Source: Mycolicibacterium helvum
GTDB lineage: Bacteria > Actinomycetota > Actinomycetes > Mycobacteriales > Mycobacteriaceae
Direction: 5' to 3'
DNA: 64,000 bases
Assembly (NCBI RefSeq): GCF_010731895.1
Contig: NZ_AP022596.1
Coordinates: forward strand, 3,162,001-3,226,000
A program made the position numbers and the translations under genes. The notes beneath the pieces are model-generated. The model was not told the origin of the DNA. It saw only the letters and a program-made list of their open reading frames with translations, and did no database searches. Shown here piece after piece: positions 6,348-33,828 of the stretch (positions within the stretch are counted from its first letter, which is position 1; each line of letters opens with the position of its first letter).

Positions 6348-6366
6348 TACGGAAAGCCATACAGTA
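6348..6366. promoter_or_regulatory. Candidate TetR-type operator (cluster motif, copy 1)
   Basis: TACGGAAA-GCC-ATACAGTA matches the 8-3-8 consensus TACTGTAA-N3-TTACAGTA at 13 of 16 arm positions. It lies between the divergent crotonase operon (start 6323) and the thioesterase (start 6413). Six further copies occur in promoter regions of the same cluster. Confidence 0.5.
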
Positions 6367-6371
6367 GTGCT

Positions 6372-6385
6372 ATCTTGTACAAGAT
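6372..6385. promoter_or_regulatory. Perfect 14-bp palindrome, candidate GntR-type operator
   Basis: ATCTTGTACAAGAT is fully self-complementary. After one mismatch, two further G-C pairs extend each side. The central TTGTACAA fits the GT...AC core typical of GntR-family sites, and a GntR/FCD gene (7060-7839) is in the operon that starts 28 bases downstream. Autoregulation is inferred. Confidence 0.5.
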
Positions 6386-6412
6386 GGCAAGGATAGCCTG
6401 ACGAGGGGACAC

Positions 6413-7063
6413 ATGGGCGACGGCAAGGACCGGCGGTTCGGTGAACTGCCACTTGCGCAGACGGTCGAGGCCGCGGCAGCCATGCGCCGATTAACCGGCA
6501 TGCTGCTGTCACTGGAGCAGCGCAGCGCAGTTGTCGACACCATGCTCGCGCAGTTCGCTGACTGGGAACGCCAGCTCGAGCCCGCGCTGCCCACTGATTC
6601 CAGGCCGCGGATGGCCACGGACGATGAATCAAAACGGATCTACCTTCAACGGGCGTTCGATATCGGCACCTACAACCCGTGTTTTCCGGAGTACCACTTC
6701 GACGCGATCGACGCCGAATCCGCCTGGGGCCGAGTCGGTTTCCCGGTGGTGTACGAAGGCCCGCCCGGGCTGGTGCACGGTGGTTTCATCGGCGTGTTCT
6801 TCGACTGCGTGATCCAGCATCACAGCTGCGCGGTCGGCCGGGCCGGCAAGACCCGGTCCCTGACGGTGAGCTATCGCAGGCCGACTCCGTTGGATACCGA
6901 GTTGGGCTTCGACATCGCCCGCACCGAGGGAGATGGTGGAGTCACCGCCATCGCCCGCCTCACGCTCGGCGACACGGTGCTCTGCATCGGTGAGGCGGAC
7001 ACCGTCGCGATGCCCGCGGATCAGCTGGCGGCGAGCCGGTTCGGCCGGCGCAGGACCGGTTGA
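6413..7063 (+). CDS. Hotdog-fold thioesterase-like protein (PaaI family)
   Basis: A 216-residue protein whose C-terminal half carries the hotdog-thioesterase signature GLVHGGFIGVFFDCVIQHHS (about 123-142), followed by the typical strand LTVSYRRPTPLDTEL. It would hydrolyse an acyl-CoA, releasing a free acid or recycling CoA. The first 60 residues form a helical extension not needed for the fold. It starts with ATG after GACGAGGGGACAC and overlaps the GntR gene by four bases (TTGA), so enzyme and regulator are co-transcribed. It could also be a non-catalytic hotdog protein. Confidence 0.8.
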   Translation: MGDGKDRRFGELPLAQTVEAAAAMRRLTGMLLSLEQRSAVVDTMLAQFADWERQLEPALPTDSRPRMATDDESKRIYLQRAFDIGTYNPCFPEYHFDAIDAESAWGRVGFPVVYEGPPGLVHGGFIGVFFDCVIQHHSCAVGRAGKTRSLTVSYRRPTPLDTELGFDIARTEGDGGVTAIARLTLGDTVLCIGEADTVAMPADQLAASRFGRRRTG

Positions 7064-7839
7064 CGGTGGCCGCCGCCCCGCGCTTCCGCCAACCCCGCGT
7101 CGCCGAGATCGTCGCCTCCCGCCTGCGCGACGACATCCTGTCCGGACGGCTGCGCGAAGGAGACGTTCTGCCATCGCAGGAGAGTCTCTTCACCCAGTTC
7201 GGCGTCAGTCCGCCCGCGCTGCGGGAAGCGATCCACATCCTCGAGATCGACGGTCTGGTGTCGGTGCGCCGCGGCAATATGGGCGGTGCCGTCGTGCATC
7301 GTCCGTCCACCGATCGCACCGCGCACACGATCAGTATGGTGTTGCAATCGCGGTCCTCGACCCCGGCTGACGTCAGTGGGGCGTTGATGCACCTCGAACC
7401 GATCTGCGCCGGTATGTGCGCCGCGCGGGAGGACCGCCTGGGCGCGGTCGTGCCGTACCTGCAGGCCGAAATCGACCGTCAGGAGGAGCAATTCGAGGAC
7501 ACCTCGCACTATGTCCCGAATGCCCGGCGCTTCCACGAGGCACTGGTCGCGCGGTGCGGTAACGAGCCGATGATCCTGCTGATCGGTTCGCTCGAGCTGA
7601 TCTGGTCGGTTCACGAATCCTCGGTGTGGAGTGACGAGCCCGACCCAATGCGGCACAAGACCATGCGGGCGGCTCTGCGCGACCACCACAAGATGCTCGA
7701 TGCGATCCGGGCGGGCAACGCCGACCGCGCGGTACGGCTGGCCCAGGACCACCTGGCCGCCGCGCGACGCAACACCTTGGCCTTCGGCCGGGGCAAAACC
7801 ATTGAGGCCAAGCTCATTGCGAACGCGGACCCCAGGTGA
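7060..7839 (+). CDS. GntR family transcriptional regulator, FadR/FCD subgroup
   Basis: A 259-residue regulator. The N-terminal winged helix (about residues 12-75) contains VLPSQESLFTQFGVSPPALR, the GntR recognition region, and GLVSVRRGNMGGAVV, the wing. The rest is an all-helical FCD ligand domain, which in this family usually senses an organic acid or acyl-CoA. The start is TTG at 7060, overlapping the preceding stop; a GTG six bases later is an alternative. Its likely site is the 14-bp palindrome at 6372-6385. It lies between a thioesterase and a crotonase gene. Confidence 0.9.
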   Translation: MTVAAAPRFRQPRVAEIVASRLRDDILSGRLREGDVLPSQESLFTQFGVSPPALREAIHILEIDGLVSVRRGNMGGAVVHRPSTDRTAHTISMVLQSRSSTPADVSGALMHLEPICAGMCAAREDRLGAVVPYLQAEIDRQEEQFEDTSHYVPNARRFHEALVARCGNEPMILLIGSLELIWSVHESSVWSDEPDPMRHKTMRAALRDHHKMLDAIRAGNADRAVRLAQDHLAAARRNTLAFGRGKTIEAKLIANADPR

Positions 7840-7848
7840 GGAAGCGAC

Positions 7849-8721
7849 ATGCCAGACGATGATCGGGTGCTGTTCGAGGTGGACCGCGACAAGCGGATCG
7901 CCACCATCACACTGAACAACCCCACCCAGCGCAATTCCTACGACGCGGCCATGCGCGAGACCGTCGCGCGGCACCTCGACGTCGTGGCCGAGGACGACGA
8001 CATCACCGTTGTGGTGTTACGCGGCGCTGAAGGGGTCTTCTCCTCCGGCGCGAACATGAACAACGCCTACGGCTGGTACGGCGATGGGGCCGAGGACGAG
8101 GAGAAGAGGAGCCGGCCCAGTCAGCGGCGCCGACTTACGGTAGACCGCAAGTCATTCGGCTTCTACCACAACCTGATGGGCTTCCCGAAGGTCACGGTCG
8201 GCGAGATCAACGGCTACGCGCTCGGCGGCGGATTCGAGATGGCGCTGATGACCGACATCTCGGTCATCAGCCGCGACACCAAGATCGGGATGCCGGCCAC
8301 CCGGTTCCTCGGGCCGGCGCTGGGCAGCCTGCACATGTTCTTCCATCGGCTCGGCCCGGTGCTGGCTCGGCGGCTGCTGCTGACCGGTGACATCATCACC
8401 GCGGGCGATGTGGAGCATCTTGGCGTCTTCACCGACACCTGCGACGCCGGCTCGGTGAGCGCGCGGGCCCGGTACTGGGCCGAGAAGGCGGCCAAGATGC
8501 CGGCCGACGGCGTCGTCATCGCCAAGGAGGCCTTCCGCCTCGTCGAGCAGAGCCAGGCCTACCAAGGTGAAGAGGTGGCCAGCTATCTGTTCCACGCGTA
8601 CGGCACCAACTTGCAGTTCGCGCCGGGGGAGTTCAACTTCGTCAAAACCCGGGCTCAGGTCGGAACCAAGGAGGCGTTCCGCCTGCGTGACGAGCATTTC
8701 CACGTGCCCGAACCGAACTGA
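7849..8721 (+). CDS. Enoyl-CoA hydratase/isomerase family protein (crotonase fold)
   Basis: A 290-residue crotonase, longer than usual because of an insert (DGAEDEEKRSRPSQRRR, about residues 82-98) between the first oxyanion-hole element (GVFSSGANMNN) and the next helix. It keeps the first catalytic Glu (GGGFEMA), but the second is replaced (IGMPATRFLG). A ribosome site GAGGAAGCGAC precedes the ATG. It follows the GntR gene by ten bases in the same operon. It is the only intact stand-alone crotonase in the cluster with one canonical catalytic glutamate. Confidence 0.88.
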   Translation: MPDDDRVLFEVDRDKRIATITLNNPTQRNSYDAAMRETVARHLDVVAEDDDITVVVLRGAEGVFSSGANMNNAYGWYGDGAEDEEKRSRPSQRRRLTVDRKSFGFYHNLMGFPKVTVGEINGYALGGGFEMALMTDISVISRDTKIGMPATRFLGPALGSLHMFFHRLGPVLARRLLLTGDIITAGDVEHLGVFTDTCDAGSVSARARYWAEKAAKMPADGVVIAKEAFRLVEQSQAYQGEEVASYLFHAYGTNLQFAPGEFNFVKTRAQVGTKEAFRLRDEHFHVPEPN

Positions 8722-8814
8722 TCGACCTCCGGTGGTCGCCGATACAATATCTGCTACTTTTGTAAAGTCGTCACAGAGTGACGCCGTAGAGCTACCGATT
8801 CCGAGGTGGAGAAT
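8722..8814 (+). promoter_or_regulatory. Possible internal promoter before the thiolase gene
   Basis: This 93-base gap is AT-richer than its surroundings. It contains TACAAT at 8743-8748 as a possible -10 element and the inverted repeat ACTTT-TGT-AAAGT just after. No copy of the cluster operator is present. Confidence 0.3.
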
Positions 8815-9990
8815 ATGCCCGAACCAGTCATTGTCGGCGCCGTCCGGACCGCAATAGGCCGGTCCTTCAAGGGGACGCTGGTCAACACTGCGCCCGAGAC
8901 GCTGCTCGGTGCCGTGCTCCCCGAGGTGGTTCGCCGCGCAGGCGTCGACCCCGCTGCCATCGATGACATCATCATTGCCGAATCGCATTACGGCGGCGGG
9001 GATCTCGCCCGCTACGTGGCGCTAGCCGTGGGCTTCGAGAACGCACCCGGCCAGGCGGTCAACCGGCACTGCGCGGGCAGCCTCACGGCCATCGGAAACG
9101 CGTCGGCACAGATCGGTTCCGGGATGGAGCGCGTGCTCATCGCCGGCGGTGTGCAGTCGCTGTCCATGACACCGCTGATGAGCCAGCGCATCCCCGGTCC
9201 GGAATTGACGTTCGAGGAGCGCTGGCTGCCGCCCATCCACGTCGAGACGCCGGATGCGCCGGCCCGCGACATGTCGATCACGGTCGGGTGGAACACCGCG
9301 CAGTCCTACGGGATCAGCCGTGAGGAGCTCGACGCCTGGGCCGCACGCAGTCACCAGCGCGCCGTCGCCGCGCAGGACGCCGGCAAGTTCCTCGACGAGA
9401 TCATCCCGCTCAAGGTCGAGCAGTTCGATGGCTCGGTCACCGAGTTCGCCGTCGACGAGCACCCGCGCCGCGACACCACAGCCGAGAAGCTCGCCGGCCT
9501 CAAGGTGCTGCATCCGGAGATCGAGGGCTTCTCGATCACCGCAGGTAACAGCAGCGGTACCAACGACGCGGCGGCCGCTGTCGCCCTGGCCGACCGCGAC
9601 TACGCGACGTCCAACGGGCTCGGCGTCCTGGCCACGGTGAAGGCGTGGGGAGCTGCGGGCGTGCCTGCGCGTGACACCGGGCTCGGCGCGGTTGCGGCCA
9701 TCGGCAAAGTACTCGACCGGGCCGGCCTCAAGCCGTCGGACGTGACGCTGTGGGAGATCAACGAGGCCTTCGCCTCGGTGCCGATCGCGGCCTGCAAGGA
9801 GTACGGCATCGACGAGGAGCTGGTGAACTTCTCGGGCAGCGGATGCAGCCTGGGCCACCCCATCGCGGCGTCGGGCGCCCGGATGATCACCACCCTGATC
9901 TACGAGCTGCGCCGTCGTGGCGGCGGCATCGGTGTCGCGGCGATGTGCGCCGGCGGCGGCCAGGGCGGTGCGGTCATCATCGAGGTCTAG
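8815..9990 (+). CDS. Acetyl-CoA acetyltransferase (thiolase)
   Basis: A 391-residue thiolase that cleaves 3-ketoacyl-CoA with CoA, or condenses two acyl-CoAs. All catalytic residues are in their classical places: nucleophile Cys86 (NRHCAGS), His348 (LGHPIAASG) and Cys378 (CAGGGQGG). The ATG at 8815 follows GAGGTGGAG; a GTG nine bases upstream is possible. It is the last gene of the rightward operon, and its TAG stop overlaps the stop of the converging TetR gene. It can provide the final chain-shortening step for the products of the neighbouring crotonases. Confidence 0.93.
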   Translation: MPEPVIVGAVRTAIGRSFKGTLVNTAPETLLGAVLPEVVRRAGVDPAAIDDIIIAESHYGGGDLARYVALAVGFENAPGQAVNRHCAGSLTAIGNASAQIGSGMERVLIAGGVQSLSMTPLMSQRIPGPELTFEERWLPPIHVETPDAPARDMSITVGWNTAQSYGISREELDAWAARSHQRAVAAQDAGKFLDEIIPLKVEQFDGSVTEFAVDEHPRRDTTAEKLAGLKVLHPEIEGFSITAGNSSGTNDAAAAVALADRDYATSNGLGVLATVKAWGAAGVPARDTGLGAVAAIGKVLDRAGLKPSDVTLWEINEAFASVPIAACKEYGIDEELVNFSGSGCSLGHPIAASGARMITTLIYELRRRGGGIGVAAMCAGGGQGGAVIIEV

Positions 9991-10724
9991 TTTTTGCGGC
10001 GAGCTTTGGTCGAGGGGGTCTTCTTACCCTCCTCGATCAGCTTGGCCGCGTGATCGAGGATGCACTCAAGACCGAACTCGAAGTTGCGCTCGTCGGCGGC
10101 ACCGATCCGGTGCCCCTCGGCGCTGACCCGGGCCAGCAGTGGCGTTCTGTCGGCGTTGCCGACGATCGCGTCCTCGAGCGGGTGCGCATCCTCGTTGGCA
10201 GCCACGTTCTTCTCGTAAAGCCGATGCAGCACAACAGAACCGCGCACGTGCACGGAGACCGCGGAGTAGGTGTCGAACGCGTCTTCGGTGGACAGCCCAG
10301 CCTCGACCAGGCTGGCGATCGCCTTCTCCACCTCAAGCTCACCCGCGCGGACAGCCCGCGCGCTGAGCGCCGAGCGGATCAGGATCAGGTCGCACAGGAT
10401 CGGACTGCCCATGAATGTCTTGCGCATCGCGCGCGCGTGATTGGCCAGGGTCTCCCGCCAGTCGGCGGCTTCGACATACGGCGTGGCGAACACGTACTCG
10501 CGCAGCGCCCGGTCGGTCATCGCGTTGAGCAGATCGTCCTTCTTGCGGAAATACCAGTAGATGCTGGTGACGCCGACGCCGAGGTGCTTGCCCAGCAGTG
10601 GCATGCTCAGGTTGTCGATCGACACCTGTTCGGCGAGTTCGAAGGCACCCGCGATGATGTCGTCGGGATTGATCGACCCACGCTCGCGCCGGGGGCGCTT
10701 GGTAGCGGTCGCTGGCTTGGCCAC
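9987..10724 (-). CDS. TetR family regulator, candidate master regulator of the cluster
   Basis: A 245-residue protein with an N-terminal TetR helix-turn-helix (about residues 20-65), including LGKHLGVGVTSIYWYFRKKD, and a C-terminal helical ligand domain. The reading frame stays open far upstream, but the GTG at 10724, preceded by GGAAGGTGG, is the credible start. One copy of the cluster palindrome lies about 100 bases upstream at 10826-10844. Six more lie at other promoters of the cluster, so it probably represses them until a catabolite or acyl-CoA binds. The tail (KTPSTKARRKN) is basic. Confidence 0.88.
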   Translation of the reverse strand: MAKPATATKRPRRERGSINPDDIIAGAFELAEQVSIDNLSMPLLGKHLGVGVTSIYWYFRKKDDLLNAMTDRALREYVFATPYVEAADWRETLANHARAMRKTFMGSPILCDLILIRSALSARAVRAGELEVEKAIASLVEAGLSTEDAFDTYSAVSVHVRGSVVLHRLYEKNVAANEDAHPLEDAIVGNADRTPLLARVSAEGHRIGAADERNFEFGLECILDHAAKLIEEGKKTPSTKARRKN

Positions 10725-10825
10725 TGAGGGTCCACCTTCCGTTTGAAGAACCGGTAGCGCGAAATCTACTCCGGCGTGGCGCTGTGGTCTGCGTCTCCGC
10801 TCCAGGACAGTTGGTCTATACCCAT

Positions 10826-10844
10826 TACTGTAAATCCTATAGTA
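10826..10844. promoter_or_regulatory. Candidate TetR-type operator (cluster motif, copy 2)
   Basis: TACTGTAA-ATC-CTATAGTA matches 14 of 16 arm positions. It sits between the TetR gene and the rightward crotonase remnant/SDR genes, so it could mediate autoregulation. Confidence 0.6.
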
Positions 10845-10886: not shown

Positions 10887-11039
10887 GTGCCGGACGCAGT
10901 GCTGCGCGAACGCCAAGGCCGGATTCTGGTCATCACGATCAATCACCCCGAGGCCCACTATGCGGTCAATCGTGCTGTGGGCCAAGGACTTGCCTTCGCG
11001 TTTGCCAAGAAGCGCGCGCCGAATTGGATCGGGACGTAG
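10887..11039 (+). pseudogene. Internally deleted enoyl-CoA hydratase (crotonase) remnant
   Basis: An open frame of 50 codons with a good ribosome site (GAGGAG) and a GTG start. Its first 36 or so residues (for example GRILVITINHPEAHYAVNRA) are a normal crotonase N-terminus. Its last dozen (FAKKRAPNWIGT) are a normal crotonase C-terminus. About 200 residues between them, including both oxyanion-hole elements, are missing, and the junction is in frame. The product cannot be an active crotonase. The promoter upstream still carries a cluster operator, so the scrap may still be transcribed as a leader to the SDR gene. Confidence 0.8.
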
Positions 11040-11052
11040 GCCCGCACCGGCC

Positions 11053-11850
11053 GTGGACCTCGGACTCGGTAACGCTACCGCCGTCGTCGTCGGCGGTGGT
11101 CGCGGTATGGGGCTGGCCGCCGCCCGGTGCCTAGCCGACGACGGCGCCAGGATCGCGCTGATCGGCCGCACGGCGGCGGTGCTCGACGCGGCAGCCGAGG
11201 AGCTGGCCGGGCGCGGCAGCCCGGATGCCGTCGGCTTGGTGGCCGACACCGGGGATGGTGGCCAGGTGAGACGGGTGTTCGAGCAGATCGGCGACCGGTG
11301 GGGTGGTGAACTCAACATCCTCATCAACGCCGTCGGGCCAAGTGTGCAAGGCACTTTCGACGACCTGGGCGACGACCAGTGGCGCACGGCCTTCGATGAG
11401 GGTGCGATGGGCATGGTGCGCTGTGTGCGCGCGGCACTGCCCCTGCTGCGGGCCGCGGAGTGGGCGCGCATCGTCAACTTCTCTGCCCAGTCCACGCAGC
11501 GTCAGAGCGCGCGGTTGTCGGCCTATACCGCGGCCAAGGCGATGGTCACCAGTGTCTCCAAGAACCTGTCGCTGTTCCTTGCTCCCGACGAGATCCTGGT
11601 CAACGTCGTCTCACCGGGCAGCATCGCCTCGGAAGCGCTCACGGGCTGGGCCGAGTCTGTCGGCGTCGACGGATCCGACCCCTATGCGCTGATGGCCGCG
11701 ATCGACGAGCATTTCGGCCACCCGGCCCACCTGCCGCGAGCCGGACTGACCGAAGAGATCGGGCCCGTCGTCGCCTTCCTGGCGTCCAAGCGCAACTCGT
11801 ACATGACCGGAGCCAATATCAACGTCGACGGGGGTAGCGACTTCACCTGA
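11053..11850 (+). CDS. Short-chain dehydrogenase/reductase (SDR)
   Basis: A 265-residue NAD(P)-dependent oxidoreductase. The cofactor loop is GGGRGMG (about 13-19, with Gly for the usual Thr). NAVG follows, then catalytic Ser in NFSAQS and the YTAAK pair (Tyr-x3-Lys); the C-terminus has the typical YMTGANINVDGG. The GTG at 11053 is chosen because the SDR fold begins there; the frame upstream overlaps the crotonase remnant. Likely role: oxidation of a hydroxyacyl-CoA or alicyclic alcohol to a ketone. Substrate not determinable. Confidence 0.9.
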   Translation: MDLGLGNATAVVVGGGRGMGLAAARCLADDGARIALIGRTAAVLDAAAEELAGRGSPDAVGLVADTGDGGQVRRVFEQIGDRWGGELNILINAVGPSVQGTFDDLGDDQWRTAFDEGAMGMVRCVRAALPLLRAAEWARIVNFSAQSTQRQSARLSAYTAAKAMVTSVSKNLSLFLAPDEILVNVVSPGSIASEALTGWAESVGVDGSDPYALMAAIDEHFGHPAHLPRAGLTEEIGPVVAFLASKRNSYMTGANINVDGGSDFT

Positions 11851-12011: not shown

Positions 12012-12030
12012 TACCGATAGGTGTACAGTA
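12012..12030. promoter_or_regulatory. Candidate TetR-type operator (cluster motif, copy 3)
   Basis: TACCGATA-GGT-GTACAGTA matches 12 of 16 arm positions, the weakest of the seven copies. It lies 47 bases before the start of the six-gene operon beginning at 12077. Confidence 0.4.
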
Positions 12031-12076: not shown

Positions 12077-12919
12077 GTGACCGACACCCACGCTGATGTC
12101 ACCGCGAATTCCGCTGCCGCCCAACCTGTTCTGTACGAGGTACGAGACAGCGGCGTCGCGGTCCTGACGTTCAACCGTCCCGAGCGGATGAACGGCTGGG
12201 GCGGTGGACTGGCAGCCGGGTTCTACGCGGGCATGGACGCGGCGGAGGCTGACCGGGGTGTCCGGGCGATTGTGGTGACCGGGTCGGGGCGCGCGTTCTG
12301 CGCCGGAGCCGATATGGGTGACCTGTCGTCGATCAGCTCGGCCAGCGTCGACAGTGCGGGCGAGGCCGACCTGACCGAGTTGGTGGGGCAGCGCCATCCG
12401 CTGTTCGTCACCACCGTGAGCAAGCCCGTCATCGCCGCGATCAACGGCGCCTGCGCCGGTATCGGGCTGACTCAGGCGCTGATGTGCGATATCCGATTCG
12501 CCGCGGCCGGGGCCAAGTTCACCACCTCCTTCGTGCGCCGCGGCCTGATCGCCGAATACGGCATCTCCTGGATCCTGCCGAAGGTCGTCGGCTGGGGCGC
12601 CGCGTTGGATCTGCTGATGAGCGGCCGGGTGTTCTACGCGGAGGAAGCCCTCGAACTCGGGATGGTCAAGGAAGTCGTCGCCCCCGACGAGTTGCTCGCG
12701 CGCGCAGTCGAATACGCCGAAGACATCGCAGCCAACTGCGCGCCGAACTCACTGGCCGTCATCAAGCGGCAGGTCTACGGCGACGCGCTGCGCGAGGCGG
12801 CCGACGCCAGCCAGCGCGCCGAGACCCTCATGCACGAATCCATGCAGCGCCCCGATTTTATCGAGGGCATCACCGCGTTCTTCGAGAAGCGGCCCCCGAA
12901 CTTCCCGCCACTGAGCTGA
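12077..12919 (+). CDS. Enoyl-CoA hydratase/isomerase family protein (crotonase fold)
   Basis: A 280-residue crotonase with a GTG start eight bases after GGAGGT. Motifs: VAVLTFNRPERMNGWGG, then GRAFCAGADMGDL (first oxyanion hole) and NGACAGIG (second). The catalytic Glu positions are replaced (GIGLTQA; FTTSFVRRG). The FTTSFVRRGLIAEYGISW segment is typical of a mycobacterial EchA subgroup of unknown reaction. It opens an operon with two amidohydrolases, an acyl-CoA synthetase and an acyl-CoA dehydrogenase pair, so it probably acts on their shared CoA intermediates. Confidence 0.88.
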   Translation: MTDTHADVTANSAAAQPVLYEVRDSGVAVLTFNRPERMNGWGGGLAAGFYAGMDAAEADRGVRAIVVTGSGRAFCAGADMGDLSSISSASVDSAGEADLTELVGQRHPLFVTTVSKPVIAAINGACAGIGLTQALMCDIRFAAAGAKFTTSFVRRGLIAEYGISWILPKVVGWGAALDLLMSGRVFYAEEALELGMVKEVVAPDELLARAVEYAEDIAANCAPNSLAVIKRQVYGDALREAADASQRAETLMHESMQRPDFIEGITAFFEKRPPNFPPLS

Positions 12920-12932
12920 GAGGACGACCCCG

Positions 12933-14141
12933 ATGACTTTGGATTACAGGGCGATTGACGTCGACAACCACTACTACGAGCCGACCGACTCGTTCACCCG
13001 GCATCTGCCCAAGGAGTTCAAGCGCCGCGGTGTACAGATGCTCACCGAGGGCAAGCGCACGTTCGCCGTCATGGGTGGGGTCATCAACCAGTTCATCCCG
13101 AACCCGACGTTCGACCCGATCATCGAGCCGGGCTGCCTGGACCTGTTGTTCCGCGGCGAGATCCCCGAAGGCGTCGATCCCGGATCGCTGATGAAAGTCG
13201 ACCGGTTGAGCGAACACCCCGAATACCAGCAGCGCGACGCCCGGGTGAAGATCCTCGATAAGCAGAACCTCGAAACCGTCTTCATGCTGCCGACATTCGC
13301 GTGCGGTGTCGAGGAAGCCCTCAAACACGATATCGAAGCGACGATGGCGTCGGTGCATGCCTTCAACCTGTGGCTCGACGAAGACTGGGGCTTCGATCGG
13401 CCCGACCACCGATTCCTGTCCGCACCCATCATCTCGTTGGCTGACCCGGATGCGGCGCTGGCCGAAGTCGAGTTCGTGCTGGACCGGGGCGCCAAGATCG
13501 TCTGTGTCCGGCCGGCGCCGGTGCCGGGCCGGGTCAAGCCGCGCTCATTGGGCGATCCGCTGCACGACCCGGTGTGGGCCCGGCTGGCCGAGGCCGGCGT
13601 TCCGGTGGTCTTCCACCTGTCCGACAGTGGCTACCTTGCCATTTCGGCGCTGTGGGGCGGCACGGGCACGTTCGAGGGATTCGGCAAGCGCGATCCGCTC
13701 GACAGTGTCCTGCTCGACGACCGCGCCATCCACGACTCGATGGCGTCGATGATCGTGCACCAGGTTTTCACCCGGCACCCCAAGCTGAAGGTGGCGAGCA
13801 TCGAGAACGGCTCGTACTTCGTGTACCGGTTGATCAAGCGATTGAAGAAGGCCGCCAATACCGCGCCCTACCACTTCAAGGAAGACCCGGTCGAGCAGTT
13901 GAAGAACAATGTCTGGATCGCCCCCTACTACGAGGACGACGTGATGCTGCTGGCCGACACCATCGGTGTGGACAAGATCCTGTTCGGCTCGGACTGGCCG
14001 CACGGCGAGGGGCTGGCCGACCCGATGGCGTTCACTGCCGACATTCCCCAGTTCCCCGAGTTCAGTGCAGTCGATACCCGAAAGGTCATGCGGGACAACG
14101 CGTTGAACCTGTTGGGCCGCTCGGTGTCGTCGGTGGCCTGA
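12933..14141 (+). CDS. Amidohydrolase family protein (amidohydrolase-2, ACMSD-like TIM barrel)
   Basis: A 402-residue metal-dependent TIM-barrel protein. The N-terminal strand reads DVDNHYYEP (about 9-17), the variant metal-binding entry of this family. A barrel strand carries VVFHLSD with the ligand His, and the C-terminal LFGSDWPHGEG gives the final Asp. Family members are hydrolases or non-oxidative decarboxylases of cyclic acids; in mycobacterial lipid clusters their reaction is usually unknown. A ribosome site GAGAGGACG precedes the ATG. It sits between a crotonase and an acyl-CoA synthetase and pairs with a second, shorter amidohydrolase at 15761. Confidence 0.85.
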   Translation: MTLDYRAIDVDNHYYEPTDSFTRHLPKEFKRRGVQMLTEGKRTFAVMGGVINQFIPNPTFDPIIEPGCLDLLFRGEIPEGVDPGSLMKVDRLSEHPEYQQRDARVKILDKQNLETVFMLPTFACGVEEALKHDIEATMASVHAFNLWLDEDWGFDRPDHRFLSAPIISLADPDAALAEVEFVLDRGAKIVCVRPAPVPGRVKPRSLGDPLHDPVWARLAEAGVPVVFHLSDSGYLAISALWGGTGTFEGFGKRDPLDSVLLDDRAIHDSMASMIVHQVFTRHPKLKVASIENGSYFVYRLIKRLKKAANTAPYHFKEDPVEQLKNNVWIAPYYEDDVMLLADTIGVDKILFGSDWPHGEGLADPMAFTADIPQFPEFSAVDTRKVMRDNALNLLGRSVSSVA

Positions 14142-14144
14142 GCG

Positions 14145-17635: not shown

Positions 17636-17647
17636 GAGACAATCACC

Positions 17648-23583: not shown

Positions 23584-23602
23584 TACTGTAACCATTACCG
23601 TT
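23584..23602. promoter_or_regulatory. Candidate TetR-type operator (cluster motif, copy 5)
   Basis: TACTGTAA-CCA-TTACCGTT matches 14 of 16 arm positions and lies between the divergent CoA-transferase (start 23493) and aldehyde dehydrogenase (start 23623). Confidence 0.6.
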
Positions 23603-26554: not shown

Positions 26555-26573
26555 TACTGTAAGAGTTACAGTA
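26555..26573. promoter_or_regulatory. Candidate TetR-type operator (cluster motif, copy 6, perfect)
   Basis: TACTGTAA-GAG-TTACAGTA is a perfect 8-3-8 palindrome, and one further T-A pair extends it at each side. It is centred between the divergent P450 (start 26534) and flavin monooxygenase (start 26608) genes and defines the consensus used for the other copies. Confidence 0.75.
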
Positions 26574-26607: not shown

Positions 26608-28218
26608 ATGGACAGTGCTGACGTGATCGTGATCGGGGCCGGATTCTCCGGTCTCTACCTGCTGTACCGGCTGCGGCAGCTCGGGATGCGGGTCCAGGTG
26701 CTGGAGAAGGCCGAAAAGGTAGGCGGCACTTGGCTGTTCAACCGCTATCCGGGCGCCCGCTGTGATATCGAGAGCATCGAATACTCCTACAGCTTCTCCG
26801 ACGAGATCCAGCAGGAATGGGTCTGGACCGAGACCATGCCGGCCCAGCCGGAGATCGAGGCATACCTGAACTTCGTCGCCGATCGGCTCGACCTGCTCCG
26901 CAATATCCGGTTCAACAACGACGTCACCGCGATGACCTTCGACGAGGACAGCGCGACCTGGACGCTGCAGACCGCCACCGGCGAGACGTTCGTCGCGCCG
27001 TTTGTCGTCGCGGCCTCGGGCATCCTGTCGGTTCCGCTGGAACCCGACATTGACGGCATGGGGACCTTCGCGGGGGAGTCGCTGTTCACCAGCCGATGGC
27101 CCGAGGGCGGGTTCGACCTGACCGGTAAGCGGGTCGGCGTCATCGGGACTGGCTCGACCGGTGTGCAGATGATTCCGGTGATCGCCCGGGAAGCCCACCA
27201 GCTCTTCGTCTTCCAGCGCTCGCCCGCGTTCACCCTGCCGTGGGAGGTGCGACCGTTCGCACCCGGCGAGCTCGACGAGATGAAGGCGAACTACGTCGAG
27301 ATCCGCGAGGCTCAGCGCCAGCACCCGGTCGGTGCGGCCCGGTTGTCGGCGTTCTCGGTCCTTATTGACATGCTCGGCAGCCCGCCCATCAAGGCGGCCA
27401 CCCGGGAGGAACAGCTGCGCGCCGTCGAGGAGCACGGCGTGATGGGAGCGCTCAACTGGGGCGACATCTTCTTCGATATCGAGGCCAACCGGATGGCCAC
27501 CACGTTGTACGGCGAGGCGATCGCCCGGATCGTCACCGATCCCGAAACCGCTGCGGCATTGGTGCCGAGCCATCCCTTCGGCTGCAAGCGCCCGATCATC
27601 GACCAGGGCTACTACCAGACCTATAACCGTGACAACGTCACCCTGGTCGATCTTCGCAGGGAGCCGATCCGGGCGATCACCGCGAACGGCATCGACACTC
27701 CCATGCGGCACTACGACCTCGACGCCATCATCTACGCCACGGGGTTCGACGCGATGACCGGCGCGCTCACCCGCATCGACGTTCGGGGCCGGGGCGGTGC
27801 CTTACTGCGCGACGTGTGGGCTAGCGAGGGGCCGGTCTCCTACCTAGGGCTCGCGGTCGCCGGGTTCCCCAATCTGTTCACCGTCCAGGGGCCGGGCAGC
27901 CCGTCGGCGGCGACCAACTTCGTCACCGCGCTGGAGCAACACATCGAATGGATCGGCGACTGCATCGCGTATCTGAGAGCGGGCGGCTATCGCACCATCG
28001 AGGCATTGCGGGCCGCACAGCAGGAGTGGATCGAACACACCACCTCCCTTGTGGCGGCCACGGTCCTGGTACACCCGAGCTGTAATTCGTGGTACAACGG
28101 CGCGAACGTTCCCGGCAAGAAACGGATGTACATGGGCTACACGGCGGGTATCCCCGAATGCCGTCGGCGCTGCGAAGAGATCGCCGACGGCGGCTACGTC
28201 GGCTTCAAGCTGGCGTGA
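26608..28218 (+). CDS. Flavin-containing monooxygenase, Baeyer-Villiger type (variant fingerprint)
   Basis: A 536-residue FAD/NADPH monooxygenase of the cyclohexanone-monooxygenase group. It has GAGFSG (FAD, residues 10-15), GGTWLFNRYPGARCD (39-53) and GTGSTG (NADPH, 180-185). The Baeyer-Villiger fingerprint FxGxxxHxxxWP appears as FAGESLFTSRWP (154-165), with Phe160 in place of the His. Such enzymes insert oxygen next to a ketone, forming an ester or lactone. The next gene encodes a hydrolase that could open it. The His change leaves open whether this is a true Baeyer-Villiger enzyme. ATG start after GAGAAGGG. Confidence 0.9.
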   Translation: MDSADVIVIGAGFSGLYLLYRLRQLGMRVQVLEKAEKVGGTWLFNRYPGARCDIESIEYSYSFSDEIQQEWVWTETMPAQPEIEAYLNFVADRLDLLRNIRFNNDVTAMTFDEDSATWTLQTATGETFVAPFVVAASGILSVPLEPDIDGMGTFAGESLFTSRWPEGGFDLTGKRVGVIGTGSTGVQMIPVIAREAHQLFVFQRSPAFTLPWEVRPFAPGELDEMKANYVEIREAQRQHPVGAARLSAFSVLIDMLGSPPIKAATREEQLRAVEEHGVMGALNWGDIFFDIEANRMATTLYGEAIARIVTDPETAAALVPSHPFGCKRPIIDQGYYQTYNRDNVTLVDLRREPIRAITANGIDTPMRHYDLDAIIYATGFDAMTGALTRIDVRGRGGALLRDVWASEGPVSYLGLAVAGFPNLFTVQGPGSPSAATNFVTALEQHIEWIGDCIAYLRAGGYRTIEALRAAQQEWIEHTTSLVAATVLVHPSCNSWYNGANVPGKKRMYMGYTAGIPECRRRCEEIADGGYVGFKLA

Positions 28219-28223
28219 GGACG

Positions 28224-29333
28224 ATGCGACTGAGCGCACATCCGTACCGTCTGGTCACCCAGCTCGGTGGTCTGTTGCCGCGATCGGTGGCTGCGCTGCA
28301 GGGCGAGGCAGGCTGGAATCCGCTGTCCGGGCGCGGGATGCGGCAGGTCGCCGAGGTCGCGCTCGACGAGCTGGTGGTCACCGGGATGACGTTGATGTCC
28401 TCGCCGCCGCAGCTCGACCGGCCGGTCGAGGAGTACGCCGGGGTGGCGGCGGAGTTGGCGGCCCTCGGCGTGGCCGGCGTGCATCGTGACCCGGAGCCGT
28501 TGCAGGTGAAGAGGATCCGGCCGATCAACGCCGGTGTGCTCTCCTACGAGCGGATGAGCTACGACCATGACCCTCGGTTGGTTCCGGCGCTGGCCGAAGG
28601 ACACGAGGGGCCGGCCTGCGCCGAGGTGGTGCTGTTCCGCCACGAGGACGGCCCGCGGCCATGGCTGGTATGGGTACATGGCGCGGGTCAGGGTGGGATG
28701 TCGGACATTCTGGTCGCCAGGGTCGGCCGCATCCATCACAAACTCGGCTTCAACGTCGCCCTGCCGGTCCAGCCGGGGCATGGGCCCCGCCGCGATCGGT
28801 GGCCGGCCTATCCGGGGACTGATCCGGTCGCCAACGTCGCCGGGATGGTCCGGGCTGTCTCGGAGGTCCGGGCGGTGCTCAGCTGGATCGAGCCCGACGC
28901 GACGACGATCGCGTTGTCCGGGCTGTCGCTGGGCAGCGCGGTTGCGGCATTGGTGGCGGGACTGGACGACCGGGTCGACGCCGTCGCCCTGTATACGCCG
29001 ATCCTCGGCCTCAACGGGATGATCGCCCGGCATCTGCACCGGTGGGGTCCGGCGGCCGATATCGTCGGCGCGGCAATGGCATCCGACATCGTGATGGAGT
29101 TGACGTCGGTGATCGACCCGTTGGCCATCGAGCCGCTACCGCCGGCGGACCGGCGGCTGATCGTCGGTGCCTGGCATGACCAGATGGCGTACCGGCAGTG
29201 CGCACTGGCGATGCACGACCGGTGGGGCGGCGAGTTGTACTGGCACGACGGCGGGCACGTCGGGCATCTGTTCTCGGGTGCCGTACAGACGCAGACCGAA
29301 CGTTTCCTGGCTGCGCTGACTCAGGCGCCGTAG
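28224..29333 (+). CDS. Alpha/beta hydrolase
   Basis: A 369-residue alpha/beta hydrolase, five bases after the monooxygenase gene. The oxyanion loop is WVHGAGQGG (about 150-158), the nucleophile elbow GLSLG with Ser235, and a late His lies in HDGGHVGH. An N-terminal extension of about 130 residues precedes the catalytic core, much as in some peptidase/acetyl-xylan-esterase-like hydrolases. In context it may hydrolyse the ester or lactone made by the monooxygenase. The 3' end overlaps the converging TetR gene by 13 bases. Confidence 0.85.
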   Translation: MRLSAHPYRLVTQLGGLLPRSVAALQGEAGWNPLSGRGMRQVAEVALDELVVTGMTLMSSPPQLDRPVEEYAGVAAELAALGVAGVHRDPEPLQVKRIRPINAGVLSYERMSYDHDPRLVPALAEGHEGPACAEVVLFRHEDGPRPWLVWVHGAGQGGMSDILVARVGRIHHKLGFNVALPVQPGHGPRRDRWPAYPGTDPVANVAGMVRAVSEVRAVLSWIEPDATTIALSGLSLGSAVAALVAGLDDRVDAVALYTPILGLNGMIARHLHRWGPAADIVGAAMASDIVMELTSVIDPLAIEPLPPADRRLIVGAWHDQMAYRQCALAMHDRWGGELYWHDGGHVGHLFSGAVQTQTERFLAALTQAP

Positions 29334-29929
29334 TCCCGCAGAATCCGATCGCGTGCGTGCGTCAGCTCGGTGTCCAGATCGAAGCCGGTGGGAAGCGCGA
29401 TCCACAGGAAGGCGATGCCGAAGAACACCGCGGTGATATCGCTGACCGCTCGGCCCAGATCGATGCCCTGGCGAACAGAATTGTCCCGCTGGCCTTTTCG
29501 CAAGCCATCCGCGACATTGGCGATCCCGCCGGTCAGCTGGTCGCTGACCCGTTCGCGCAACGGCGAGGTCGTCTTCATGGACTCGAAGGTGGAGACGAAC
29601 ATGGCGCGCAGCACGTCGGGGTCATGGGCGTAGAGGTCGCGGATGCGGTCGATATGGGCCAGCACCTGGTCCATGCCCGTCGCCTGGGGGTTGGGGTTCG
29701 GGTTGAGCCGCCCGACGTACTCCTGGAGGAAGTCCTCGAGGATGGCCTCCTTGCCGCCGAAGCGGGCATGCACCATCGTGCGGCTGTAGCCCGCTCGGCG
29801 GCCGATCTCGGCAGCCGTGGTTGCCTCCCAACCCTTCTCGACGATCAGCTCGGCGGCAGCCTCCATCAGTCGGCGTCGGGAAGTCTCGACCCGTTCAGGT
29901 TGCGTCAAACCGCGTGCGGGAGAGGGCAC
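29321..29929 (-). CDS. TetR family transcriptional regulator
   Basis: A 202-residue regulator with a standard TetR helix-turn-helix (about 15-62), including EIGRRAGYSRTMVHARFGGK, and a helical ligand domain. GTG start at 29929, only six bases from a -10-like TAATAT, so translation is probably leaderless. The shared control region with the divergent gene has a 10-bp inverted repeat unlike the cluster operator, so this protein probably controls itself and the 29967 operon separately. Confidence 0.88.
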   Translation of the reverse strand: MPSPARGLTQPERVETSRRRLMEAAAELIVEKGWEATTAAEIGRRAGYSRTMVHARFGGKEAILEDFLQEYVGRLNPNPNPQATGMDQVLAHIDRIRDLYAHDPDVLRAMFVSTFESMKTTSPLRERVSDQLTGGIANVADGLRKGQRDNSVRQGIDLGRAVSDITAVFFGIAFLWIALPTGFDLDTELTHARDRILRDYGA

Positions 29930-29969
29930 CCTTGCATATTAAACACACGACAACTATCTTGCAAGGGTG
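29927..29969. promoter_or_regulatory. Symmetric divergent leaderless promoters with 10-bp inverted repeat
   Basis: CACCCTTGCA (29927-29936) and TGCAAGGGTG (29960-29969) are exact reverse complements 23 bases apart. Each arm ends in the GTG start codon of one divergent gene. On both strands a -10-like hexamer (TAATAT leftward, TATCTT rightward) is followed by GCAAGG and then GTG, the layout of leaderless mycobacterial transcripts. The repeat is the probable TetR site. Confidence 0.55.
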
Positions 29970-30827
29970 ACTTCAGCCACGGCAGCGGTGCCGTCCGGCA
30001 TCGACGCCGTCGACTCGGCGTGGCTCACCGACGCACTGCGGTCGGACCCGACCATTCCGGACGACGCCACAGTGACTGCCGTCATGGCCGAGCAGATCGC
30101 TCAGGACAGCGGGTTCTCGTCGCTGCTCTATCGCTTGCACCTGACCGGCAGCCCTGGCCTACCCGCGACGGTGATCGCCAAGCTGGCCGCACAGTCGCAA
30201 GCCCGCGGCGCGATGGAGTTGCTCGGCGGATACCGGCGCGAACTCGCCTTCTATCGCGATATCGCCGGGCGTGCCCCGATGGACGCACCGCATGTCTACG
30301 CCGCGCGGATGGCTGACGACTCGGCCGACTTTGTGCTGGTGCTGGAGGACTTGCGGGAGTGGGACAACGCCGACCACCTTGCTGGGTTGTCGCTCGAGCG
30401 CGCCCGGCTGTGTATCGGGCAACTGGCCGGTCTGCATGCCTGGTCGGTGCAAGCGTCGACCACCGCAGCGCTGCAAGTGTTTCCGCGCTTCGACATGCCC
30501 GCGGTCCGCGATCTGCTGGTGCCTGCCTTCGAGCCGGGGTGGGACATTTACCGTACGCACTCGGCGGTACCTGTGCCTGAACCCGTCGCGCGCTTCGCGG
30601 CGCGGTTTACCGAGCACGCCGCCACCGCGCTCGCCGGCCTGACCCGAGCGGTCCATGCTGCTACATGGCGACACTACCGGCTGGCAGCCGGTTTCCTCAT
30701 GCTGCTGCCCGTCATCATCTTGATCGGCTGGGGCGCACTCCCACAACGGTCACGGGACCTCTGCCTGACGCTCACCGACCGGGCCGTGGCCACGATCGCC
30801 GACATCAACGCGGTGGAGGTGTTCTGA
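29967..30827 (+). pseudogene. Phosphotransferase (APH/ecdysteroid-kinase-like) with frameshift and catalytic-loop deletion
   Basis: The open frame gives 286 residues. The first 220 resemble the N-lobe and hinge of APH-type small-molecule kinases (VLVLEDLREWDNADHLAG). After GLT the matching frame shifts by one: PERSMLLHGD, the start of the catalytic HGDxxxxN loop, is readable only in the other frame at 30643-30672. Normal C-terminal sequence (YRLAAGFLMLLPVIILIGW) then resumes at 30675 in the first frame. The Asn, the DFD metal site and roughly 80-90 residues are missing, so kinase activity must be lost although no stop interrupts it. It may still be translated and couples to the next gene. Confidence 0.7.
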
Positions 30828-31201
30828 TGAGCTGCACCGCGCGTGAGGTCGTAGAGTTGTACAACCTGGTGGTCTGGAACGATCGGGACGTCGTGCTGGC
30901 CGAGGAGCTGCTGGGCGACAACGTGATTCGCCATGAGGTCGGCGAATCTGTGGTGCTGACCCATGACGAGGCCGTCCAGCGCGTGGTCGATCACCTGGAG
31001 ATGTTTGACGAGATCCGGTTCGACCTGAGCCTGGTCGTGGCCGGCGACGACGGTGAGCATGTCGCGATCGTTTACCAGTCGCCGATGACGCTCAAGGATG
31101 GCATGGAAACGACCATCGGCAGTATGGAGATCTTCCGTGTGGTCGATGGCAGGATCACCGAAGTGTGGAACTGCGGCTATAAACGAGGAGTTTGGGCGTG
31201 A
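30827..31201 (+). CDS. NTF2-like/SnoaL-like small protein
   Basis: A 124-residue protein with the alpha+beta cone pattern of the NTF2/SnoaL superfamily: an N-terminal helix pair (AREVVELYNLVVWNDRDVVLA), then alternating strands ending in MEIFRVVDGRITEVWNCG. Members bind or isomerise small hydrophobic molecules, including ring ketones. The ATG shares one base with the previous stop and has GGAGGT at good spacing. It is co-transcribed with the decayed phosphotransferase and the luciferase-like oxidoreductase. Exact role unknown. Confidence 0.8.
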   Translation: MSCTAREVVELYNLVVWNDRDVVLAEELLGDNVIRHEVGESVVLTHDEAVQRVVDHLEMFDEIRFDLSLVVAGDDGEHVAIVYQSPMTLKDGMETTIGSMEIFRVVDGRITEVWNCGYKRGVWA

Positions 31202-31229
31202 CGGATCCGGCGGGCAGGAGCTAAGCGAC

Positions 31230-32276
31230 ATGGGGATAGACACGCGCGTGCTCGACGAGTTGGGTTACTACCTGCTGGCCGGCGCCGGCGGGGAGGGCCC
31301 GGCCACCCTGATGGAAGAAGCGCGCCGGGGTGAGGAGCTGGGCTTCGGCACCGGCTTCATCTCCGAGCGCTGGAACGTCAAGGAGGCGTCGTCTCTGGTC
31401 GGTGCGGCATGCGCGGTGACCAGCCGGATGCAGATCGCCACGGCGGCCACCAATCACAACACCCGGCACCCGCTGATCACCGGCTCGTGGGCCACCACGA
31501 TGCACCGGCTCTCCGGCGGGAGATTCACTCTCGGCATCGGACGCGGAATCGCGGCGATCTACGGGGCCTTCGGCATCCCGCCGGTGACCACCGCGCAGAT
31601 GGAAGACTTCGCCCAGGTGATGCGCCGGTTGTGGCACGGCGAGTTGATCGTCAATCATGATGGGCCGCTGGGAAAGTACCCGATTCTGTTCCTGGATCCG
31701 GATTTCAACGAGGACATCAGGTTGGCCCTCGTGGCGTTCGGGCCCAACACGCTGAAGCTCGGCGGGCGGGCGTTTGACGATGTCATCTTGCACACCTACT
31801 TCACCCCGGAGACGTTGGCGCGCAGTGTCAAGACCGTGAAGGATGCTGCCGAGCAGGCCGGCCGCGATCCAGACAGTGTGCGGGTGTGGTCGTGCTTTGC
31901 CACGGTCGGCGATCACCTCCCCGAGGAACTGCGGCTGAAGAAGACGGTCGCGCGGCTGGCCACCTATCTGCAGGGTTACGGCGATCTCCTCGTCACGACG
32001 AACAATTGGGATCCCGCTGTGCTGGCACGTTTCCGCGCGGATTCGGTGGTGCAGTCCGTTGGTGGCGGTATCGATCACAAGGCGACCGCCGAGCAGATCG
32101 AGCAGATCGCCACATTGATTCCCGAGGAGTGGCTGGAACCGTCGGCCACCGGATCGGCGCAGCAGTGTGCGGCGAGGATCCGAAAGGAATTCGACTACGG
32201 CGCTGACGCGGTGATCATGCACGGCGCCACCCCCGACGAGTTGGAACCGGTTGTCACGGCCTACCGCCGGTTGTGA
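31230..32276 (+). CDS. Luciferase-like (LLM class, probably F420-dependent) oxidoreductase
   Basis: A 348-residue TIM-barrel oxidoreductase of the bacterial-luciferase superfamily. Features include the N-terminal strand GYYLLAGAG, ARRGEELGFGTGFISERW, SWATTMHRLSGGRFTLGIGRG (the conserved cofactor segment, about 89-109) and a C-terminal EFDYGADAVIMHG. In mycobacteria most such proteins use coenzyme F420 for hydride transfer, although FMN is possible. An AGGAG ribosome site precedes the ATG. The second member of this fold in the cluster is at 33841. Confidence 0.87.
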   Translation: MGIDTRVLDELGYYLLAGAGGEGPATLMEEARRGEELGFGTGFISERWNVKEASSLVGAACAVTSRMQIATAATNHNTRHPLITGSWATTMHRLSGGRFTLGIGRGIAAIYGAFGIPPVTTAQMEDFAQVMRRLWHGELIVNHDGPLGKYPILFLDPDFNEDIRLALVAFGPNTLKLGGRAFDDVILHTYFTPETLARSVKTVKDAAEQAGRDPDSVRVWSCFATVGDHLPEELRLKKTVARLATYLQGYGDLLVTTNNWDPAVLARFRADSVVQSVGGGIDHKATAEQIEQIATLIPEEWLEPSATGSAQQCAARIRKEFDYGADAVIMHGATPDELEPVVTAYRRL

Positions 32277-32278
32277 CC

Positions 32279-33778
32279 CTAGGGTGTGATGGCTGTCCGG
32301 TTCACCGGTTCAGCGACTTCCTGACGGCTGAAGACACCGCGCTGCAGTGCGAGCAGTAGGGCGTTGCGGGTTTCCTCCGGCGCGATCAGCTCGTCGAAGC
32401 CGAGACTGCCCGCCGAGCGGTATGACGCCTCGAGCTCCATGTTCTTCAGGGTCTCCGTGACATCCTCGTCGGCGTGCGAGGCCCGGCTCAGCGCGGCCGC
32501 GCTCATCGCCCCCATGGTTGCCCCCGGGTAGGCGAATGTCGCCACCTGATTGTCGAAACCCAGCAGCGACATGACCATTGAGCCGAAGCCGAAGGCCTTC
32601 CGCAGCGTGACGTGGAGTTTCAGTGTGGTGGCCGCGGTCTGGGCAACGAACATCCTTGCGCCGCTTCGCAGTACGCCACTGCGCTCGGACTGGCCGCCCG
32701 GCAGCATGCCGGGATTGTCCGCTAGGAAGACGAGCGGCAGGTGGAAGGAGTCGGCGACCATGATGAAATGCGCGGCCTTGTCGGCAGCATCGGAGTCGAT
32801 GGAGCCAGCCAGTTCGGTGGGCTGGTTCGCGACGACCGCGACCGGATACCCGCCCAGATGGGCGAGTGCGCAGATGATGGCTGTGCCGAACTTCGGCTGT
32901 ATCTCCAGCCAGTCCGTGTCGTCGAAAACGACGTCGAGAACGCCTCGCATGTCGTAGATGTTGCGGTTGTCCCGGGAGACAATGTCGAGTAGTTCCGGGG
33001 TGGGGCGCGGACCAGCGTTCTCGTCGAACAGCCGCGTTGGGGGATACGACCATGCGCTGGAAGGGAAATAAGACAGATAGCGCCGGATGTCGTCGAGTAC
33101 CGCCTGGTCGGTCTCGGCATAGTTGTGCACGACGCCGCTGGGTAGCGCGACGGTCGGACCGCCAAGTTCCTCCTTCGAGATATCCTCTCCGGTAGCCTCT
33201 TTCACGACCGGGGGACCGGCGGTGAAGATCGCCCCCTGATTACTCATGATGGAGAAGTCGCAGACTGGGGCGACAAGTGCGCCGTGGCCGGCGGACGGGC
33301 CGAGGATCGCGGATATGGTGGGGACCTTGCCGGAGCATCGCGCCTGGGCGATCAGATCGGTCGGGGTGCGGCCGTAGTGCTCACCGCCCGCGGCGCGGAA
33401 ACCGGCGCCCTCCAACAGCATCACCAACGGGATCTTGCTGCGCAGCGCGAGTTCGGCGAGGCGATAACGCTTGGCGTTGCCGCCGGGGCCGATACTGCCG
33501 GCCAGGGTGGTGAAATCCTCAGCGCCGACCATCACCGGCGTTCCGTCGATGCGACCGGCGCCGGCAACGAGTCCGTCGGCGGCGATCTCGCCACCAACCA
33601 GGGTGCCGAACTCCTGGAACGTGCCGGGGTCGAGGAGGTGGTCGATTCGAGCTCGGGCGTCGAGTTTTCCCTTGGCGTGGTGTTTGGTGACGCGCTCCTC
33701 ACCGCCCATCGCGTGCGCGTGTTGACGGCGGCGACTCAAGTCGTGGAGCGTCTCCTGCCAGTCCTGCGCGTTGCTCAT
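32279..33778 (-). CDS. Acyl-CoA carboxylase carboxyltransferase (beta) subunit, orphan
   Basis: A 499-residue carboxyltransferase of the propionyl/methylcrotonyl/geranyl-CoA carboxylase type. It shows tandem crotonase-like halves with oxyanion-hole segments (GAGFRAAGGEHYGRTP; NQPTELAGSIDSDAADK) and VFLADNPGMLPG. It would transfer a carboxyl group from biotin to an acyl-CoA, but no biotin-carboxylase/biotin-carrier subunit is encoded anywhere in the window. It must borrow one from elsewhere or have another function, such as decarboxylation or acyl-CoA hydrolysis. Its promoter region is shared with the divergent 33841 gene and carries a cluster operator. Confidence 0.9.
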   Translation of the reverse strand: MSNAQDWQETLHDLSRRRQHAHAMGGEERVTKHHAKGKLDARARIDHLLDPGTFQEFGTLVGGEIAADGLVAGAGRIDGTPVMVGAEDFTTLAGSIGPGGNAKRYRLAELALRSKIPLVMLLEGAGFRAAGGEHYGRTPTDLIAQARCSGKVPTISAILGPSAGHGALVAPVCDFSIMSNQGAIFTAGPPVVKEATGEDISKEELGGPTVALPSGVVHNYAETDQAVLDDIRRYLSYFPSSAWSYPPTRLFDENAGPRPTPELLDIVSRDNRNIYDMRGVLDVVFDDTDWLEIQPKFGTAIICALAHLGGYPVAVVANQPTELAGSIDSDAADKAAHFIMVADSFHLPLVFLADNPGMLPGGQSERSGVLRSGARMFVAQTAATTLKLHVTLRKAFGFGSMVMSLLGFDNQVATFAYPGATMGAMSAAALSRASHADEDVTETLKNMELEASYRSAGSLGFDELIAPEETRNALLLALQRGVFSRQEVAEPVNRTAITP

Positions 33779-33809
33779 CGACGTGTCCTAACCCTGGCGG
33801 CGTTGACCA

Positions 33810-33828
33810 TACTGAAGTGCTTACTGTA
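33810..33828. promoter_or_regulatory. Candidate TetR-type operator (cluster motif, copy 7)
   Basis: TACTGAAG-TGC-TTACTGTA matches 13 of 16 arm positions and lies between the divergent carboxyltransferase (start 33778) and luciferase-like gene (start 33841). It is the last copy seen, marking the probable right end of the regulon. Confidence 0.5.

Follow-up and report, generated by a model that had tools for sequence, protein, structure and literature searches.

A candidate TetR operator recurring across a catabolic gene island of Mycolicibacterium helvum

A 64-kb stretch of Mycolicibacterium helvum contig NZ_AP022596.1 (positions 3,162,001 to 3,226,000; the window) contains an island of presumed catabolic genes in which a 19-bp palindrome, TACTGTAA-N3-TTACAGTA, recurs seven times between genes. 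The seven palindromes are likely the operators of one regulon. We propose that the gene at 9987-10724 (minus strand) encodes their binding protein, a TetR-family regulator that would act on them as a dimer, repressing both its own gene and the presumed catabolic operons; judged from sequence, this reading has a probability of about 0.87. The initial annotation had already named this TetR as the probable regulator of about 28 kb, and the assignment is supported by the conservation of the sites, the co-occurrence of TetR and motif, the altered operators of TetR-less genomes, the sites beside TetR homologues in other genera, and the evidence against two other regulators, a GntR protein of the island and Rv0767c.

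The palindrome in the window and in its genome

Every position of the window was scored for the two 8-base arms, out of 16. The perfect palindrome (16/16, 26555-26573) lies between a cytochrome P450 gene (minus strand) and the operon of a Baeyer-Villiger monooxygenase (BVMO; plus strand). Six further copies reach at least 12/16: 15/16 at 20057-20075, between an SCP2-type thiolase (minus) and a molybdopterin oxidoreductase (MoOR, plus); 14/16 at 23584-23602, between a CoA-transferase of family III (minus) and an aldehyde dehydrogenase (ALDH, plus); 14/16 at 10826-10844, upstream of the TetR gene, where autoregulation is predicted; 13/16 at 33810-33828, between a carboxyltransferase (CbxT, minus) and a luciferase-like monooxygenase (LLM2, plus); 13/16 at 6348-6366, between an enoyl-CoA hydratase (ECH) gene to the left (minus) and the orfX, GntR, ECH and thiolase genes to the right (plus); and 12/16 at 12012-12030, ahead of an operon encoding an ECH, a PF04909 protein, an AMP ligase, a second PF04909 protein and two acyl-CoA dehydrogenases (ACADs), hereafter the ECH operon. 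These are the same seven recurrences that the initial annotation had reported, and the best remaining matches (53489 and 10814) score 11/16. The partial copy at 10814 shares one arm with the TetR-promoter operator, the two together spanning 10814-10844.

Among spacers of 0 to 11 bases, the set is obtained with a spacer of 3 only; the five matches at spacers of 0, 8 and 9 coincide in part with these sites, and the other spacers were rejected because none gave a match independent of the spacer-3 sites. By a base-composition model, 0.24 sites of at least 12/16 are predicted for the window as a whole and 0.03 for its intergenic part, against the seven found. A search allowing up to three mismatches, outside which the 12012 copy with its four mismatches falls, returns 6 matches in the window and none in 100 dinucleotide shuffles. 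As many matches within genes as between them had been named earlier as what would undo the operator claim; all seven sites lie between genes, as first stated, in the approximately 6.9% of the window that is intergenic by hand-made, approximate gene models. Six of the seven, and not five as first counted, separate divergent genes, given an approximate start assumed for the ECH gene left of 6348; the lone site between co-directional genes is 12012, where both read rightward. No site of at least 12/16 occurs in the mce/fadAB half, described from the outset as free of the motif, nor anywhere in the window right of 33828.

In the proposed regulation, a TetR dimer would sit on each palindrome, repressing rather than activating the surrounding catabolic operons and also repressing its own gene (autoregulation), and a pathway intermediate would act as the ligand that releases it from DNA, as for other TetR proteins. 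The relaxed mycobacterial -10 pattern is TANNNT, which each arm, being close to TAC(N)GT(A), fits. A dimer bound to one site could therefore lie across the -10 elements of the two divergent promoters and block both, a prediction that is in part already contained in the motif. The same resemblance of the arms to a -10 element could suggest that the palindromes are similar by chance or as promoter elements, a view to which we attach a negligible probability given the excess over the base-composition model, the spacer fixed at three bases, the 14 of 19 positions that are invariant at one promoter in 42 genomes (see below), and a conservation that is position-specific, found before lead genes only, and embraces both arms and the spacer.

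Across the 6.40-Mb genome, a single contig, eight sites have at most three mismatches, six of them in the island, and a reversed-pattern control gives five. The two off-island sites (558837 and 5470441) are considered to be at chance level, since both fall within stop-to-stop frames that are 100 codons or longer, and since the control alone gives five. With the relaxed pattern TACNGTA-N5-TACNGTA at no more than one mismatch, six of seven genome-wide sites are in the island (control 15). Judged at up to three mismatches, the regulon of this genome seems not to extend beyond the island.

Conservation of the operator and the identity of its regulator

The TetR frame that was searched has 246 codons, its start being set at 10724. 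Its product carries an N-terminal TetR_N helix-turn-helix (PF00440, 46.6 bits, cut-off 24) and a TetR-type ligand domain, TetR_C_1 (PF02909, 48 bits, cut-off 21); the best NCBIfam match is the Tet repressor, at 72.5 bits far under its cut-off of 265. An AlphaFold2 model from 10 sequences is all-helical (pLDDT 74, pTM 0.65), a moderate model that served for fold confirmation only; with it, Foldseek recovered Tet repressors, engineered sulfonylurea repressors and ActR, with E down to 1.7e-7.

For the comparison with relatives, 40 kb around the TetR orthologue was taken from 30 of the 87 other TetR-bearing congeneric genomes, and the window proteins were mapped by tblastn; orthologues have at least 55% identity and a match from near the start, and a site counts when it lies no more than 350 bp upstream. 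These 1.2 Mb contain 201 sites, compared with a mean of 5 for 200 shuffled palindromes matched in composition (95th percentile 17, maximum 58). A site stands before the orthologues of the ECH operon in 29/29 cases, of ALDH in 21/21, TetR in 29/30, MoOR and orfX each in 13/14, LLM2 in 6/6, CbxT in 4/4, BVMO in 10/12, P450 in 21/26 and the CoA-transferase in 17/22, followed by ECH_c (18/27), thiolase_b (the SCP2-type enzyme; 16/27), the short-chain dehydrogenase (SDR; 11/26), GntR (4/19), aBH (2/9), thiolase_a (3/23) and ECH_d (1/27); intermediate counts may partly be due to rearranged neighbours. For the five internal genes of the ECH operon, upstream sites occur in 0/29, 0/28, 0/29, 0/29 and 0/29 cases; in these relatives the sites stand before lead genes and not within this operon. 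Upstream sites were likewise found for neither orf29 (0/2) nor SnoaL (0/4), nor for the left-hand genes, that is, the two AMP ligases (0/22 and 0/27) and the ECH-fusion gene (0/23). At the position of the left site, of the 6348 type, the six fetched relatives nearest to this genome stay below 12/16, though a site at a distance matching 6348 does occur in several of the named loci that are closest. Among named loci with this TetR, the closest belong to Mycobacterium/Mycolicibacterium and include M. sphagni, M. rhodesiae JS60 and M. pinniadriaticum; the copy upstream of the TetR gene, noticed from the start, is kept within 300 bp in 78 of 80 named loci, a set that overlaps in species with the 30 genomes and is not independent of them.

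The GntR/FCD regulator at 7060-7839 (plus strand; Pfam GntR and FCD), situated 3' of the 6348 site, is a second DNA-binding regulator inside the island and might itself be the operator-binding protein, the more so as a site immediately precedes its orthologue in 4 of the 19 genomes having one. Its orthologue was not found, however, in the 40 kb around TetR, the extent of the search, in 11 of the 30 genomes, although each of the 11 has operators; moreover, the operators recur at the TetR promoter, in other genera too, and their half-site spacing seems unlike that of FCD regulators. Owing to its patchy presence within these 40-kb stretches, GntR was rejected as the binder, a role we consider very improbable for it, and it is instead a predicted regulon member.

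The pairing of TetR and motif was followed in a 118-genome congeneric sample that includes the genome studied here. A TetR orthologue (E<=1e-100, at least 67% identity) occurs in 88 genomes, this one included, and is lacking in 30; a motif copy with at most one mismatch is present in 72 of the 88 TetR-bearing genomes versus 1 of the 30 TetR-less ones (Fisher p=5e-15, uncorrected for phylogeny). Orthologues of the first PF04909 protein of the ECH operon (Amh1; at least 68% identity) are, among the matches listed, in TetR-bearing genomes only. Other genera of the family gave 14 TetR-homologue matches, 13 of them with loci, and seven of these 13 (39-67% identity) have a site of at least 12/16 within about 300 bp upstream; the recognition-helix stretch GVTSIYW is identical in all the extra-generic homologues and in the paralogues shown.

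The promoter shared by CbxT and LLM2 is more telling as to which regulator is involved than this co-occurrence. CbxT was found in 85 genomes, 83 of them TetR-bearing, and the CbxT-LLM2 promoter was inspected in 42 TetR-bearing genomes (29 of 30 loci from one set plus 13). The operator is present in all 42, scoring 12-14/16, with 14 of its 19 positions invariant. In four single-contig genomes (G022, G016, G073 and G069) the unit retains the operator although over 1.6 Mb separates it from TetR; in 12 further genomes it is on a contig other than that of TetR, and may still be near. The description of the island as self-contained stands for the present genome as searched, and fails in some relatives, where the CbxT unit can be distant. 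Overlapping 12/16 copies also occur at some CbxT sites (e.g. L265-L267).

Two TetR-less genomes, G009 and G098, keep CbxT, and a third, G105, keeps an LLM2 (62%). Recognisable operator copies persist there in the corresponding position and differ at 2, 3 and 4, respectively, of the 14 invariant positions; the difference from the 42 genomes (Fisher 1e-11) is biased, because the 14 positions were chosen for their invariance in those 42 and the cells are also non-independent. Of ten LLM2-like loci in TetR-less genomes, four had their upstream region inspected, those of G009, G054 and G105 and a single locus of G098; the remaining six have 48-53% identity and, being regarded as paralogues, were left out. 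The LLM2-like gene of G054 (67%) has no site above 11 and none at its promoter, and the G098 copy (58%) no site above 9 and none at its promoter. The P450 orthologue, present by tblastn in 26 of the 30 TetR-bearing stretches, was found in 0 of 30 TetR-less genomes at E<=1e-110, in a search without its own positive control; operator decay can therefore be tested solely on CbxT/LLM2.

Several observations weigh against the assignment to this TetR. The TetR promoters of L074 and L101 (M. lepraemurium), 2 of the 80 named loci, score only 9/16, and G026 is without a 12/16 site at its TetR promoter; 16 of the 88 TetR-bearing genomes contain no copy at up to one mismatch, and 6 of the 13 extra-generic loci lack a 12/16 site upstream. 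Since gains and losses of TetR mostly coincide with those of the ECH operon, co-occurrence alone cannot single out TetR from another factor of the island. The decay argument comprises three genomes only, and the G009 copy still scores 12/16, a score shared by one TetR-bearing locus. Finally, in 9 of the 30 relatives (G068, G011, G081, G021, G020, G039, G034, G096 and G102) a second TetR of 47-59% identity, with the same recognition helix (GVTSIYWYFR conserved), is encoded between ALDH and P450 and could share the operator. It is conceivable, at odds we place clearly below even, that in such relatives both paralogues recognise one set of sites and respond to different ligands, which would extend the one-regulator proposal rather than exclude it; the genome studied here has a single TetR match at E<=1e-40, so sharing could apply in relatives only.

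Gene content of the island and the suspected pathway

Gene families were assigned by Pfam. The minus-strand genes at 983-6299 encode two AMP-binding ligases, an ECH-domain protein and an ECH, with approximate starts; possibly they form one leftward operon from the 6348 site, and the regulon may reach left of that site to include the minus-strand genes down to 983. ARAGORN places a probably spurious tRNA-Ser(GCT) at 3464-3555 (plus) inside the minus-strand AMP-ligase frame 2442-3899. To the right follow orfX (without a family match), GntR, an ECH and a thiolase (6413-9990, plus), and beyond the TetR gene the SDR (11053-11850, plus). A short frame under the TetR-divergent operator (10887-11039, plus) resembles the remnant of an ECH gene; relative G018 has an intact ECH copy at the corresponding place.

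The ECH operon (12077-18841, plus) keeps its gene order in relatives. Its ACAD pair has Tcur3483 and 4x28 as solved relatives, the latter of which we take to be FadE26-FadE27. Its two PF04909 proteins are encoded at 12933-14141 (Amh1) and 15722-16588, both on the plus strand; Amh1 is closely related to the solved 4dzi and has a far weaker likeness to PtmU3 and DitZ. Some PF04909 proteins are dinuclear oxygenases, according to PMC10811679, and an oxygenase rather than a hydrolase function is possible for Amh1. An Rfam match to Ms_AS-1, a mycobacterial antisense sRNA, lies antisense inside the Amh1 gene (13011-13108, minus; 83 bits) and may merely reflect conserved coding sequence.

Next come the thiolase (18870-20018, minus; approximate start), which is SCP2-type by Pfam and by its PDB relatives, MoOR (20087-22273, plus; approximate start), the CoA-transferase (22270-23493, minus) and ALDH (23623-25164, plus), a relative of the Rv0768 family that remains below the cut-off of that family. 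For the P450 (25317-26534, minus; Pfam and PDB), the nearest solved relatives in the PDB name no substrate. The operon at 26608-32276 (plus) encodes the BVMO, a weak esterase-like match, an unassigned frame, EcKL, SnoaL and a luciferase-like protein; the BVMO is type I, nearest to phenylacetone and steroid monooxygenases. CbxT (32279-33778, minus) resembles the beta subunit of methylmalonyl/propionyl-CoA carboxylases, and LLM2 (33847-34869, plus) has an approximate start.

Because CoA ligases, an ACAD pair, an SCP2-type thiolase, a P450, a BVMO, a molybdopterin oxidoreductase and a CoA-transferase occur together, we infer a CoA-linked breakdown pathway, and the enzyme set suggests a polycyclic, steroid- or terpenoid-like compound as its substrate, which would be activated to CoA esters and dehydrogenated by the ACAD pair. 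A wider picture, which we offer tentatively and think rather unlikely to hold in full, is that this TetR regulon extends across mycobacteria, is older than the genus and marks an undescribed catabolism of polycyclic terpenoid- or steroid-like compounds, in which the paired PF04909 proteins are CoA-linked dinuclear-metal oxygenases acting beside the P450 and the BVMO, and that relatives have gained a further TetR that uses these operators too and responds to a different intermediate. For this island, the TetR of which is present in 88 of the 118 congeneric genomes sampled, the analysis names a candidate regulator and supplies the operator sequence together with an ordered target list; the conserved operator may also be used to find detached pathway members, as with the carboxyltransferase unit.

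Relation to known TetR regulons

TetR-controlled catabolic regulons of actinobacteria are already known, whereas that of the 9987-10724 TetR is apparently undescribed, as first supposed: among the matches listed in the open-access literature, with figures, supplements and subscription papers outside the search, none describes this TetR, its operator or its regulon, and among the matches listed for the arm strings TACTGTAA and TTACAGTA no title concerns a mycobacterial regulator.

The match of ALDH to the Rv0768 family raised the idea that the island is the published Rv0767c regulon, in which a palindromic 'motif X' of phytosterol-induced genes is attributed to the Rv0767c orthologue; in that report, the genus and the TetR type of the regulator are the same, and P450s and aldehyde dehydrogenases are among the targets (PMC6593523). 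A motif for Rv0767c is also listed in PMC4482099, and Rv0767c sites are reported in PMC10312376 to be rich in GAC/GTC and poor in TAA/TTA. The logos of motif X and Rv0767c being figures, the comparison covers locus and promoter sequence. The Rv0768 family is found in 41 genomes, above its cut-off in 37. In the genome studied here, the Rv0768 orthologue lies at C1:3079416 (L136), about 81 kb before the first base of the window, and a different TetR gene is divergent from it, as Rv0767c presumably is from Rv0768. The Rv0768 promoters contain GGACA-N2-TGTCC in 30/30 loci and TGGAC-N4-GTCCA in 29/30, whereas the island motif reaches 12/16 in 0/30. Identity with the Rv0767c system was thus rejected by synteny and operator, and we regard it as extremely improbable. 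That system shares with the island a TetR regulator, P450 and ALDH targets and presumed autoregulation (PMC6593523, PMC4482099), but differs in protein, locus and operator (GGACA-N2-TGTCC).

The KstR and KstR2 cholesterol regulons (PMC1995591, PMC3068626) likewise consist of a TetR-type regulator acting on clustered catabolic operons and are highly conserved in the genus. Their gene set probably differs from that of the island. The operators of KstR and KstR2 are probably also different from the island motif. In the mycobacterial bkaR regulon a TetR repressor similarly acts on nearby genes, but these serve branched-chain keto-acid metabolism, unlike those of the island (PMC3920632). The classical TetR/TetR_C_1 repressors, such as the Tet repressor, ActR and SimReg2, have the same TetR_N and TetR_C_1 domains and are relatives among PDB sequences; the Tet repressors and ActR would also share the fold of the island TetR, as compared by Foldseek with the predicted model, at 20-28% identity. 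We take the tet and SimR operators to differ in sequence from the island motif. The neighbourhoods differ as well, an efflux pump being encoded beside the classical repressors and catabolic enzymes beside the island TetR.

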